This document shows positions 60,834 to 64,000 of a stretch of 64,000 bases of DNA, one piece after another. Within the stretch, counting starts at the first letter, position 1. The number at the start of each line of letters is the position of its first letter. This stretch comes from Roseicyclus persicicus (GTDB lineage: Bacteria > Pseudomonadota > Alphaproteobacteria > Rhodobacterales > Rhodobacteraceae). A model generated the notes under the pieces. That model was not told where the DNA came from and ran no database searches. It saw only the letters and a list, made by a program, of their open reading frames with translations. The stretch covers positions 62,001 to 126,000 of the forward strand of contig NZ_JAAZQQ010000003.1 of NCBI RefSeq assembly GCF_012395815.1, given 5' to 3'. The position numbers and the translations under genes were made by a program.

Positions 60834-62228
60834 ATGACGCACGAGACGTGGGGGCAAGTCCGGGGGGAGCTGCTGAAGGCAGTGGGTGAGAACAATTTCA
60901 CGGCGTGGATCGACCCCATCGTGTTCGACCGCCTCGATGACCGAACGGCCCGATTCCATGTCCCGACGAATTTCTTCGGGTCCTGGGTCTCGCAGAATTT
61001 CAGCGACGTCATCCTGCGCCACCTGGTCTCGGCCGGGATCGGCGTGGACCGCGTCGAGTTCGCCGTGGTGCCGGGCCTGCGCGCCCGGGCCGGCAACGCC
61101 AACGCCGCGCCCTCCGACGCCGCCCCGCGCGCCGAGGTGCCCGCCGACCGGCCCGCCGCGGGCGCGGTGCGCACCGGCACGCAGGACCTGCCCGGCGCCA
61201 CGCTGAACCCGGGCTACACCTTCGAGAACTTCGTCGTCGGCAAGCCCAACGAGCTGGCCCATGCCGCCGCCCGCCGCGTGGCCGAGGGGCGCGACGTGAC
61301 CTTCAACCCGCTGTTCCTGTATGGCGGGGTCGGCCTCGGCAAGACGCACCTGATGCACGCCATCGCCTGGGAGCTGCGCACGCGGTTCCCCGAGGCGCGG
61401 ATCCTGTACCTGTCGGCAGAGCAGTTCATGTACCGCTTCGTCCGGGCGCTGCGCGAGCAGGACACCATGGCGTTCAAGCAGATCTTCCGCTCGGTCGACG
61501 TGCTGATGGTGGACGACGTGCAGTTCATCGCCGGCAAGTCGTCGACGCAGGAGGAATTCTTCCACACCTTCAACGCGCTGGTGGAAGAGGGCAAGCAGAT
61601 CGTCATCTCGGGCGACCGCGCGCCGGTGGACATGGAGGAGCTGGACGCCCGCATCGCCTCGCGGCTGCAGTGCGGCCTCGTCGTGGACCTGCACCCGACC
61701 GACTACGAGCTGCGCCTCGGCGTGCTGCAGCACAAGGCCGAGCAGGCGCTGGCCCGCAACCCCCACGTCCGCATCTCCGAGGGCGTGCTGGAGTTCATGG
61801 CGCAGCGCATCTCGACCAACATCCGCGTGGTCGAGGGGGCGCTGACCCGGCTCTTCGCCTTCGCCGACCTGGTGCGGCGCGAGATCACCATCGAGATGGT
61901 GCAGGACTGCCTGTCGGACATCCTGCGCTCGACCGACCGCAAGGTGACGCTGGACCAGATCATCAAGACCACCTGCGACTACTACAACATCCGCCAGGCC
62001 GACATCACCGGCTCCAGCCGCGCCCGCGCGGTGGCCCGGCCGCGGCAGATGGCGATGTACCTGTCCAAGACGCTGACCAGCCGCAGCTACCCCGAGATCG
62101 CCCGCAAGCTGGGCGGGCGCGACCACACCACCGTGCTCTACGGCGTGCGCAAGATCGAGGAGCTGATGTCGGTGGACAGCCAGATCGCCGAGGACGCCGA
62201 GATCCTGCGGCGGATGCTGGAGGCCTGA
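60834..62228 (+). CDS. dnaA: chromosomal replication initiator DnaA
   Basis: A 464-residue initiator. Domain I (about residues 1-75, MTHETWGQVRGELLKAVGEN) leads via a short alanine/proline-rich domain II to the AAA+ domain with Walker A LYGGVGLGKTHLMHA (about 161-175), Walker B VDVLMVDDVQFI, and the C-terminal DNA-binding helix-turn-helix with GGRDHTTVLYGVRK. ATG 60834 is selected because domain I must begin here, with a purine-rich GGAACGGGA just upstream. dnaN and recF follow in the conserved order. Confidence 0.98.
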   Translation: MTHETWGQVRGELLKAVGENNFTAWIDPIVFDRLDDRTARFHVPTNFFGSWVSQNFSDVILRHLVSAGIGVDRVEFAVVPGLRARAGNANAAPSDAAPRAEVPADRPAAGAVRTGTQDLPGATLNPGYTFENFVVGKPNELAHAAARRVAEGRDVTFNPLFLYGGVGLGKTHLMHAIAWELRTRFPEARILYLSAEQFMYRFVRALREQDTMAFKQIFRSVDVLMVDDVQFIAGKSSTQEEFFHTFNALVEEGKQIVISGDRAPVDMEELDARIASRLQCGLVVDLHPTDYELRLGVLQHKAEQALARNPHVRISEGVLEFMAQRISTNIRVVEGALTRLFAFADLVRREITIEMVQDCLSDILRSTDRKVTLDQIIKTTCDYYNIRQADITGSSRARAVARPRQMAMYLSKTLTSRSYPEIARKLGGRDHTTVLYGVRKIEELMSVDSQIAEDAEILRRMLEA

Positions 62229-62363
62229 ACCCCGCGCCCGGGCGGCGGGCCCCCGTTGGGGCTTGACGCCCGCGGCGGGCGCGGACACTCCTTGAAAAAA
62301 TCGGTTGTGCTGACGGGGGAGGCGGGTAGGCTCGCGGCCCCCGCACTTGTCGGAGCCAGGTCC

Positions 62364-63482
62364 ATGAAACTCTCGATCGAGCGCGCCACGCTGTTGCGCG
62401 CTGTCTCTCAGGCGCAGTCGGTGGTGGAGCGCCGCAACACCATCCCGATCCTCGCCAACGTGCTGATCGAGGCCGAGGGCGACACGGTCAGCTTCCGCGC
62501 CACCGACCTCGACATCGAGGTGGTCGACAAGGCCCCGGCCATGGTCGAGCGCGCGGGCGCCACGACGGTGTCGGCCGTCACCCTGCACGAGATCGTGCGC
62601 AAGCTGCCCGACGGGGCGCTGGTGACGCTGGCCGACGACGGCGCGCAGGGCCGGCTGACGGTGCAGGCGGGGCGGTCGACCTTCCAGCTGGCGACGCTGC
62701 CCAAGGAAGATTTCCCGGTGATGACCGCGACCGAGTACGCGGCCAATTTCTCCTGCCCCGCGCCGGTGCTGCGGCGGCTGTTCGACAAGTCGAAGTTCGC
62801 GATCTCGACCGAGGAGACGCGCTATTACCTGAACGGCGTGTTCTTCCACGTCGCCGACGGCGAGACCGGCCGCGTGCTCCGGGCGGTGGCGACCGACGGC
62901 CACCGGCTGGCGCGGATCGACGCCGCCGTGCCGCAGGGCGCCGACAAGATGCCGGGCGTGATCGTGCCCCGCAAGACGGTGGGCGAGCTGCGCAAGCTGC
63001 TGGACGACGACGAGGCGCAGATCGCGGTCTCGGTCAGCGAGACCAAGGTGCGCTTTGCCACGCCCGAGATCACGCTGACCTCCAAGGTCATCGACGGCAC
63101 CTTCCCCGACTACGCACGGGTGATCCCGGTGAACAACTCCCGCCGGATGGAGGTGGACGCCGCCGATTTCGCCAAGGCGGTCGACCGCGTGGCGACGGTG
63201 TCGTCGGAGCGGTCCCGCGCGGTGAAGATGGCGCTGGACGAGGACCGCCTGGTGCTGTCGGTCAACGCCCCCGACGCCGGCGCCGCCGAGGAGGAGCTGG
63301 CCGTGGCCTACGGCGACGACCGGCTGGAGATCGGCTTCAACGCGAAATACCTGCTCGAGATCGCCAGCCAGGTGGACCGCGAGAACGCGGTGTTCCTGTT
63401 CTCCTCGCCGGGCGAACCCACGCTGATGCGCGAGGGGAACGACACCACGGCGATCTATGTCGTGATGCCGATGCGGGTGTGA
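62364..63482 (+). CDS. dnaN: DNA polymerase III beta sliding clamp
   Basis: A 372-residue ring-forming clamp that tethers DNA polymerase III. The start MKLSIERATLLRAVSQAQ and the end TTAIYVVMPMRV are typical, and the three-fold domain repeat is present (for example around SNSRR-type segments at NNSRRMEVDAADFAKAVDRV). It follows dnaA by 135 bases containing GC-rich sequence and no clear promoter, so co-transcription with dnaA is possible. The stop (63482) lies 4 bases before the triple palindrome. Confidence 0.98.
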   Translation: MKLSIERATLLRAVSQAQSVVERRNTIPILANVLIEAEGDTVSFRATDLDIEVVDKAPAMVERAGATTVSAVTLHEIVRKLPDGALVTLADDGAQGRLTVQAGRSTFQLATLPKEDFPVMTATEYAANFSCPAPVLRRLFDKSKFAISTEETRYYLNGVFFHVADGETGRVLRAVATDGHRLARIDAAVPQGADKMPGVIVPRKTVGELRKLLDDDEAQIAVSVSETKVRFATPEITLTSKVIDGTFPDYARVIPVNNSRRMEVDAADFAKAVDRVATVSSERSRAVKMALDEDRLVLSVNAPDAGAAEEELAVAYGDDRLEIGFNAKYLLEIASQVDRENAVFLFSSPGEPTLMREGNDTTAIYVVMPMRV

Positions 63483-63486
63483 CGGA

Positions 63487-63554
63487 GCGGAAAACCCGGG
63501 TTTTCCGCACGGGAAATCTCGAGATTTCCCGTGCGTTTTCCTCGAGGAAAACGC
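63487..63554. repeat. three contiguous perfect palindromes between dnaN and recF
   Basis: Three perfect palindromes fill the gap: a 22-bp one at 63487-63508 (centre CCCGGG), a 30-bp one at 63506-63535 (centre CTCGAG), and a 22-bp one at 63533-63554 (centre CTCGAG); neighbours share 2-3 bases. The third contains GAGGAAAAC, the ribosome-binding site of recF, so folding would hide it. The first and third share complementary GGAAAAC/GTTTTCC arms and could also pair with each other, giving alternative structures. Confidence 0.95.
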
Positions 63555-63555
63555 C

Positions 63556-64000
63556 GTGACCCCCCACGTCGCCACCCTGTCCCTGTCCCATTTCCGCAGC
63601 CACCGCCGCGCGCGGCTGGACCTCGACGGGCGGCCGGTGGCGATCTTCGGACCGAACGGCGCGGGCAAGACCAACCTGATGGAGGCGGTGTCGCTCCTGT
63701 CGCCCGGCCGTGGCCTGCGACGGGCCGCGGCCGAGGAGATCATCCGCCGCCCCGAGGGGATCGGCTGGAAGGTCGCGGCCGAGGTGGCGGGCCCGGGCCT
63801 CGGCCACGAGATCGAGCTGACCGCCGAACCCGGCCAGCCGCGGGCCACGCGGATCGACGGCAAGGCGGCGCCCCAGACGGCGCTGGCCCGGCTTCTGCGC
63901 ATCGTCTGGCTGGTGCCCGCGCAGGACCGGCTGTGGATCGAGGGGGCGGACGGGCGGCGGCGGTTTCTCGACCGCATCGCGCTCAGCTTCGCGCCCGATC
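63556..64000 (+). CDS. recF: DNA replication and repair protein RecF (5' part, partial)
   Basis: An SMC-like ATPase that loads RecA at single-stranded gaps. The window holds the first 148 codons. The GTG start at 63556 is followed by MTPHVATLSLSHFRSHRRAR (as translated), the family N-terminus, and the Walker A FGPNGAGKTNLMEAVSLL (about residues 34-51). It also shows the IDRI-like segment FLDRIALSFAPD at the window edge. The ribosome-binding site GAGGAAA lies inside the third palindrome, about 8 bases upstream. The Walker B and signature are beyond the window. Confidence 0.95.
   Translation, partial: MTPHVATLSLSHFRSHRRARLDLDGRPVAIFGPNGAGKTNLMEAVSLLSPGRGLRRAAAEEIIRRPEGIGWKVAAEVAGPGLGHEIELTAEPGQPRATRIDGKAAPQTALARLLRIVWLVPAQDRLWIEGADGRRRFLDRIALSFAPD

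Follow-up and report, generated by a model that had tools for sequence, protein, structure and literature searches.

Stable hairpins stand at the 3′ ends of genes as intrinsic terminators, or between the genes of an operon as intercistronic stem-loops, of which the Rhodobacter puf operon has an example. Other bacterial palindromes are dispersed repeats. Among them, the CGTC REPs are high-copy short palindromes of Alphaproteobacteria with stems of 8-9 bp and loops of 4-5 nt, which lie in convergent or codirectional gaps close to stop codons and for which a dedicated transposase is not known, as portrayed in the main text of Di Nocera et al. (2013, PMC3733652). The same main text does not name Rhodobacter, Roseobacter, Dinoroseobacter, Jannaschia, Paracoccus or Ruegeria. 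Moreover, template switching is able to produce a perfect stem, or a change on both of its sides, in a single step that bypasses G-U intermediates, according to the relevant passages of a study of hairpin upkeep in RNA genes (Monttinen and Loytynoja 2022, PMC8794818). Here we compare with these systems a 68-bp triple palindrome located between dnaN and recF of Roseicyclus persicicus, for which no description was found in the literature as judged by titles and abstract openings, with subscription journals mostly outside the coverage.

The window, namely the whole stretch of 64,000 nucleotides that was analysed, contains dnaA, dnaN and recF, the identities of which were confirmed by Pfam (Table 1). 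Between the dnaN stop codon (63480-63482) and the recF GTG (63556) there is a gap of 73 bases, 68 of which belong to the triple palindrome, leaving four bases after the stop and one before the GTG. The first-pass annotation had described three perfect palindromes of 22, 30 and 22 bp that run back to back, occupy nearly all of the gap and enclose the recF Shine-Dalgarno in the third; all of this was borne out, with three bases shared at each join and the Shine-Dalgarno-like GAGGAAAA lying within 63533-63554. The palindrome centres are exactly 23 bp apart. Palindrome 2, whose outer three bases are common to its neighbours, is followed by TTTT on the + strand and appears terminator-like in a consensus scan.

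Table 1. Features at the dnaN-recF junction, in window coordinates
Feature	Position	Strand	Evidence and remarks
dnaN, DNA polymerase III beta clamp	62364..63482	+	ORF and three Pfam beta-clamp domains; upstream neighbour of the element
Whole 68-bp dispersed triple-palindrome element	63487..63554	.	R. persicicus copies elsewhere with 1-7 differences/68 bp; their flanks unlike (by eye)
Palindrome 1, 22 bp	63487..63508	.	Perfect; arms GCGGAAAAC / GTTTTCCGC, loop CCGG; -11.8 kcal/mol as RNA hairpin
Palindrome 2, 30 bp	63506..63535	.	Perfect; arms CGCACGGGAAATC / GATTTCCCGTGCG, loop TCGA; -22.2 kcal/mol
Palindrome 3, 22 bp	63533..63554	.	Perfect; arms GCGTTTTCC / GGAAAACGC, loop TCGA; -11.8 kcal/mol
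recF, N-terminal part, extends beyond the window end	63556..64000	+	Open frame with GTG start; Pfam RecF/RecN/SMC N-terminal match

These three are the longest perfect palindromes of the window, followed by two of 16 bp. As an independent-base estimate predicts only 0.09 palindromes of at least 22 bp and 0.0007 of at least 30 bp per window, three abutting ones are not a product of chance. In addition, a 161-nt RNA spanning the gap folds into three adjacent hairpins and does so better than all of 200 dinucleotide shuffles (z -5.3). Chance origin is thus ruled out by the expected number, the length rank and the fold z-score together. Searching positions 62000-64000 with Rfam covariance models at E up to 1 gave two sub-threshold matches, neither over the element, and a known RNA family was accordingly rejected as its identity.

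Genome-wide searches revealed that the unit recurs. The core pattern GGAAAACN{2,12}GTTTTCC occurs at 56 places in the 3.71-Mb R. persicicus genome against none for the reversed control, and at 2-56 places in each of the 13 genus genomes (controls 0-2), although the two places in G009, with one in its control, are background. It was also found at seven places (control one) in G023, a member of another genus that has the best RecF match outside the genus, and at 0-2 places in the other 47 of 61 genomes. With the 68-bp sequence as query, 55 matches were obtained in R. persicicus, both strands and partial matches counted; at least 20 places cover at least 66 of the 68 bases at 76-100% identity, the dnaN-recF copy included, and 12 of the 13 genus genomes gave matches. 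R. persicicus copies with few differences have ends that coincide with the outer palindrome ends and flanks that by eye are mutually unlike, and some copies in different genomes are orthologous with common flanks. The proposal of a mobile palindromic repeat inserted in a replication operon therefore holds as far as a dispersed repeat is concerned, with copies at many places in the genome and in other genomes of the genus; movement was not observed, and a mobilising enzyme was not found.

For further comparison, 62 copies from R. persicicus and its relatives were collected among the matches listed, namely those aligned to the 68-mer without gaps and with at most 18 differences, dropping gapped or partial alignments. 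Since the set includes orthologues and kin copies, counts drawn from it are not independent and P values are optimistic; the shuffles used below keep this relatedness. A collection of plasmids had no match to the 68-bp element, and plasmid carriage was rejected. Nine viral-contig stretches match CGGAAAACNNNNGTTTTCCG, but among the matches listed all their loops are non-palindromic and by eye their 50-nt flanks lack a second palindrome, so these stretches were not counted as members of the family and carriage by viruses was likewise rejected.

Like REPs in general, the element is a short palindromic repeat with many copies in gene gaps. It shares with the CGTC REPs, as the main text of Di Nocera et al. 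(2013, PMC3733652) describes them, the high copy number, short palindromes of like stem and loop size, the placement near stops and the lack of a known dedicated transposase. It differs from them in the absence of a terminal CGTC tag and in its architecture of three abutting perfect palindromes with mostly palindromic loops, where CGTC REPs pair tagged hairpins as head-to-head dimers. In the 8 nt next to the ends of the 62 copies, CGTC was found upstream of none and downstream of two, and GACG upstream of two and downstream of none, the TGTC and CCTC variants being outside this comparison. The corresponding numbers are 2/62 upstream and 0/62 downstream for GTAG, and 0/62 and 9/62 for CTAC. With GTAG REPs, REPINs and BIMEs the element has in common that they are dispersed, non-autonomous palindromes, mostly in gene gaps, but these systems possess RAYT/TnpA-REP transposases in the sections describing them (PMC3733652, PMC8266576), whereas a Y1 transposase match (PF01797, E ≤ 0.001) was absent from all 13 genus genomes in a search that matched 5 of 14 control genomes. 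A RAYT/REPIN system was rejected on this ground. Direct repeats of 3-9 nt flanking the 62 copies were found at 3 nt in three copies, at 4 nt in one and at 5-9 nt in none; a MITE was rejected because clear target duplications are absent and the unit ends share only a GCG...CGC inverted repeat. Terminators and the puf stem-loop likewise form stable hairpins where genes end or in the gaps within operons, but the 68-bp element is a defined repeated unit, with a T-run on one strand only, and neutral in orientation. Altogether, as the GTAG and CGTC tags, clear target duplications and the Y1 transposase are all absent, the element is REP-like and represents a new variety outside the tagged REP superfamilies.

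Gene context could be placed for 55 of the 62 copies, from counts that exclude the lower-GC genomes G015, G021, G025 and G045 and from gene calls and starts of a codon-usage script, which was checked only against dnaA, dnaN and recF of the window and at L297 sets the start later than the recF match does. None of the 55 lies inside a called gene. They occupy 29 convergent, 24 codirectional and two divergent gaps, mostly near a stop codon, in agreement with the REP placement in convergent or codirectional gaps near stops. Compared to 138 convergent, 595 codirectional and 138 divergent adjacent gene pairs in 864 kb of the R. persicicus genome, convergent gaps are enriched (P 3e-10) and divergent gaps depleted (P 0.005), both values being optimistic given the orthologues among the copies. 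In codirectional gaps, 12 of 24 copies begin within 6 nt past the upstream stop and 20 within 28 nt, the other four at 72-691 nt; in convergent gaps, 28 of 29 overlap the nearer stop, one of them by 12, or lie within 8 nt of it, and for 17 the farther stop is no more than 11 nt away. A role in mRNA processing, which the first-pass annotation had raised, or at mRNA 3′ ends would fit this location. The codirectional copies comprise 12 in sense and 12 in antisense orientation, and a polarity rule set by a terminator T-run was rejected. Only three placed copies end within 4 nt before a called start, the next nearest at 16 nt, and since all three are dnaN-recF copies (R. persicicus, G001 and G006), it is only at this junction that a placed copy covers a ribosome-binding site. 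When arrays of every family are counted, the R. persicicus stretches have 11 convergent, 14 codirectional and one divergent.

Comparison of two orthologous gaps showed that whole palindromes and whole elements are gained or lost between the genus genomes. The convergent gap at purD carries the 68-bp element in R. persicicus, G001, G008 and G010, a GTGCGCC-type hairpin in G005 and G006, and an imperfect hairpin in G002, and under the same palindrome rule no palindrome was found in G003, G009, G011 and G012; this comparison leaves out G004, the sequence of which is cut off, and G007, which lacks a purD match. Because four genus genomes retain it at purD, the element is not simply transient. In the aldolase gap, R. 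persicicus and G001 have three palindromes, G002 and G006 two along with a decayed third, and G005 two, and G008 has the first palindrome plus a second hairpin with a 5-nt loop, the middle one being absent; within 130 nt past the stop, no palindrome was found in G003, G007, G009, G010, G011 and G012 (G004, without a match, is left out). Separately, in L316, L317 and L319 downstream of purD and in G006 stretches, there is a recurring hairpin, GGTGCGCCT..AGGCGCACC or a similar one, which replaces the 68-bp element at an orthologous convergent gap.

The pairing symmetry of the copies is kept unevenly. Among the 62 copies, broken pairs amount to 137 of 1736 cells in the arms, with 37 of 1302 in the inner seven pairs of each hairpin, as against 91 of 372 loop "pairs" (arms versus loops, Fisher P 2.5e-17, optimistic because of kin copies). 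Covariation was evaluated in an alignment of 39 of the 62 copies (A1, in which the row of the window stands for L236), from which 19 copies with at least 14 differences and four found only in the own_C1/own_C3 stretches were omitted. Two-sided changes account for 54 arm cells compared to 12.6 in shuffles; column pairs 31/38, 4/19 and 27/42 have three pair types each and zero broken or wobble cells, and the inner columns contain hardly any wobble. The loops also change symmetrically, with 32 two-sided cells versus 8.6 shuffled and a covariation score of 0.459 versus 0.204, both reached by 0 of 500 shuffles, whereas two of the five loop measures are weak: 18 of 500 shuffles reach the number of pairs having a two-sided change, and 157 of 500 reach that of further pair types. 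A basal stem between a G-rich left and a C-rich right flank, which would make a cloverleaf, was rejected (162 of 372 flank pairs versus 153 shuffled; 249 of 2000 shuffles at least as high).

Loop bases of a hairpin cannot pair in RNA. On the gene strand of the codirectional copies, G.T mismatches number 5 and A.C mismatches 13, and wobble is therefore not favoured; on the element's own + strand, all 62 copies together have 40 G.T and 23 A.C, mostly in outer columns. Because the loop columns also change symmetrically and wobble is not favoured in codirectional copies, the pattern speaks for a symmetry that would be made at the DNA level, by template switching or by conversion between copies, with upkeep probably weaker in loops than in arms. 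A caveat to the wobble argument is that selection on both strands in convergent gaps would remove wobble too, and copies change contexts. Compared to the template-switch upkeep of hairpins in RNA genes, as far as the relevant passages cover it (PMC8794818), the symmetry of the 68-bp element includes the loop bases, and simple intrastrand switching would not be expected to make loops palindromic.

Besides the GGAAAAC-type family, a second family is centred on the octamer CTTGCAAG, and its architecture is the same as that of the 68-bp element. Tandem pairs of the octamer number 70 in R. persicicus, 37 each in G003, G004 and G011, and two in G001, with none in the other eight genus genomes and none for the control in 13 of 13. 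In 800 kb of the R. persicicus genome, 37 of 38 octamers are in tandem at 21-23 bp. Their five nearest flank positions pair in 185 of 185 cells, although two of them carry four pair types, and at the three positions beyond these 31, 29 and 28 of 37 are paired; the octamer served as search key, and flank pairing played no part in the selection. The family thus consists of three to four tandem perfect palindromes about 22 bp apart with variable arms that pair perfectly near the centre (e.g. G000:C1:25438-25524; stretches L127, L131, L132, L138, L141 and L183), and similar ordered arms recur at several loci.

Both families have two to four abutting perfect palindromes with centres 22-23 bp apart, mostly behind stop codons, and both show symmetric changes in the arms, the GGAAAAC-type family in the loops as well. 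Of 52 pairs of neighbouring perfect palindromes, taken across all families in the R. persicicus stretches and G006, 46 are spaced 22 or 23 bp from centre to centre. Arrays of at least two perfect palindromes were not found in 100-kb samples of eight other genomes; looser rules yielded two-hairpin units 23-24 bp apart in G017 (four) and G015 (one), and a small number of differently spaced tandem groups in G015, G045 and G050. One may ask whether some machinery of the genus, acting on DNA, makes, spreads and repairs tandem perfect palindromes by their shape and not their sequence, which we consider a speculative suggestion that is somewhat unlikely to hold; if true, at least two sequence-unrelated families, the GGAAAAC-type and the CTTGCAAG-centred one, would stand under one shape-reading machinery. 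Two-palindrome arrays with CTTCTAGAAG and TTCGTACGAA-like centres, observed at G000:C1:79026-79077, G000:C1:362933-362981 and G006:C1:1301111-1301166, are possibly further small families.

At the dnaN-recF gap itself, the relatives have two to four palindromes, mostly at 23-bp spacing and with different arms and loops, or quite different sequence, or few bases. The R. persicicus copy differs without gaps at 1-7 positions from nine copies of its own genome (among the matches listed) and at 8 from the best orthologous array examined; the gap sequence is therefore nearer to the genomic family than to its orthologues. Some of the more divergent arrays, with 19-21 differences, are carried by L017-L019, whose RecF is 90-91% similar. 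Relative to the array of G008 (L029), that of G007 (L028) is missing a segment that begins near the middle of palindrome 2 and extends to where palindrome 4 starts; a deletion stimulated by the palindromes could account for this. In the dnaN-recF gaps L101, L103, L105, L035 and L038 of other Rhodobacteraceae, a two-hairpin unit occurs at about 23-24 bp, e.g. CCGGAATTTTT..AAAAATTCCGG plus CGTTTTCTT..AAGAAAACG, and the latter hairpin is present in 14 of 149 genomes of the family. In the gaps L057, L060, L067, L077, L088 and others, a sequence resembling GCCTCCGGCGGGAGTATTT recurs with a purine-rich stretch behind it, whether a palindrome is present or absent.

We regard it as likely that the palindromes between dnaN and recF represent one copy of a non-coding REP-like element, 68 bp long and dispersed at the level of the genus, with spread at the DNA level and tolerance at 3′ ends. 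The element is a dispersed unit, lies mostly behind stops, turns over at orthologous sites and changes symmetrically in arms and loops. Copies would spread by a DNA-level process, in which either a hairpin-forming single strand is transposed or one locus is copied to another, and would survive where nothing breaks, that is, immediately after stop codons. The two-sided changes would stem less from selection on a single RNA strand than from conversion between copies or from template switching at quasi-palindromes, by which one arm is copied onto the other. In RNA, the three stable hairpins should protect the 3′ end of dnaN against exonucleases. Hairpin 3 should in this gap also lower recF translation, as it covers the ribosome-binding site, which is a weak step of the proposal.

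A possible but less probable explanation is a bidirectional transcript-end element selected as RNA, in which tandem hairpins end or protect the flanking transcripts and the symmetry serves both strands. The placement of copies near stops, with 29 of 55 in convergent gaps (P 3e-10), the TTTT behind palindrome 2 and the better preservation of arms than loops all agree with it, and selection on both strands in convergent gaps would also purge wobble pairs. It is at odds, however, with the neutral orientation in codirectional gaps, with a gene strand that has no excess of G.U over A.C and inner columns nearly free of wobble, and with loops whose bases change symmetrically although they are unable to pair in an RNA hairpin; besides, the T-run is only four long and one-sided. 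The regular spacing of centres, which would put them on one helix face at about two turns across sequence-unrelated families, brings to mind an array of sites to which a DNA-binding or nucleoid protein attaches, and the arms of the CTTGCAAG family indeed vary around a constant octamer, although the octamer was the search key. Yet a protein that reads sequence would need no arms that are variable and perfectly complementary, and the spacing may be just palindrome length plus a short spacer; we consider such an array very improbable.

Similarly improbable is a translational switch specific to this locus, in which the recF ribosome-binding site is masked by hairpin 3 and released by alternative folds, and RecF is thereby kept below DnaN. 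Hairpin 3 does lie over the Shine-Dalgarno-like sequence, most genus arrays in the dnaN-recF gap end 1-8 nt before the next start codon (L020/L049 excepted), and, in a hand-made list of loci, 13 of the 21 distinct genus-clade gaps have hairpins with arms of at least 8, as do 25 of 71 other gaps, against 0.8 and 0.9 in shuffles. But the 68-bp unit also stands at many unrelated genes, in codirectional gaps as often in antisense as in sense orientation, and in some relatives the dnaN-recF gap measures 4-22 nt or its sequence is unrelated. The outer arms GGAAAAC/GTTTTCC are mutually complementary, as previously noticed, but direct evaluation gave -39.9 kcal/mol for the three local hairpins and -19.7 and -20.9 for two cross-paired forms of the outer palindromes, so that the alternative folds expected from this complementarity are about 19-20 kcal/mol weaker. 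Nor do the arrays as a group reduce the predicted openness of the recF start, with medians of 0.34 at 15 loci with at least two palindromes, 0.42 at 12 with one and 0.35 at 66 with none, and start occlusion was rejected as a shared trait of array-bearing loci. The R. persicicus copy, at 0.23, has the lowest predicted openness of the 15; reduced recF translation at its junction is plausible but looks like a by-product of where the copy lies. A conserved RecF-specific switch, as envisaged in the first-pass annotation, is thus not supported, and the comparison of relatives that it called for showed palindrome arrays of differing arms and loops in some and an unrelated or very short gap in others. 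To all appearance, the dnaN-recF palindromes are no switch designed for RecF; they look like a genome repeat of a known kind in a new variety.

What appeared as a curiosity of a single locus thereby becomes a genus-wide repeat family with an unusual anatomy, and cautions against inferring a regulatory switch from one locus. As the two-sided changes include loop bases that are unpaired, apparent "compensatory evolution" is not creditable to RNA folding alone. Copies that abut a start codon, as at recF, offer a handle on whether such repeats retune operons, and the 68-bp family provides a natural test bed for the origin, spread and lasting perfection of bacterial palindromes.
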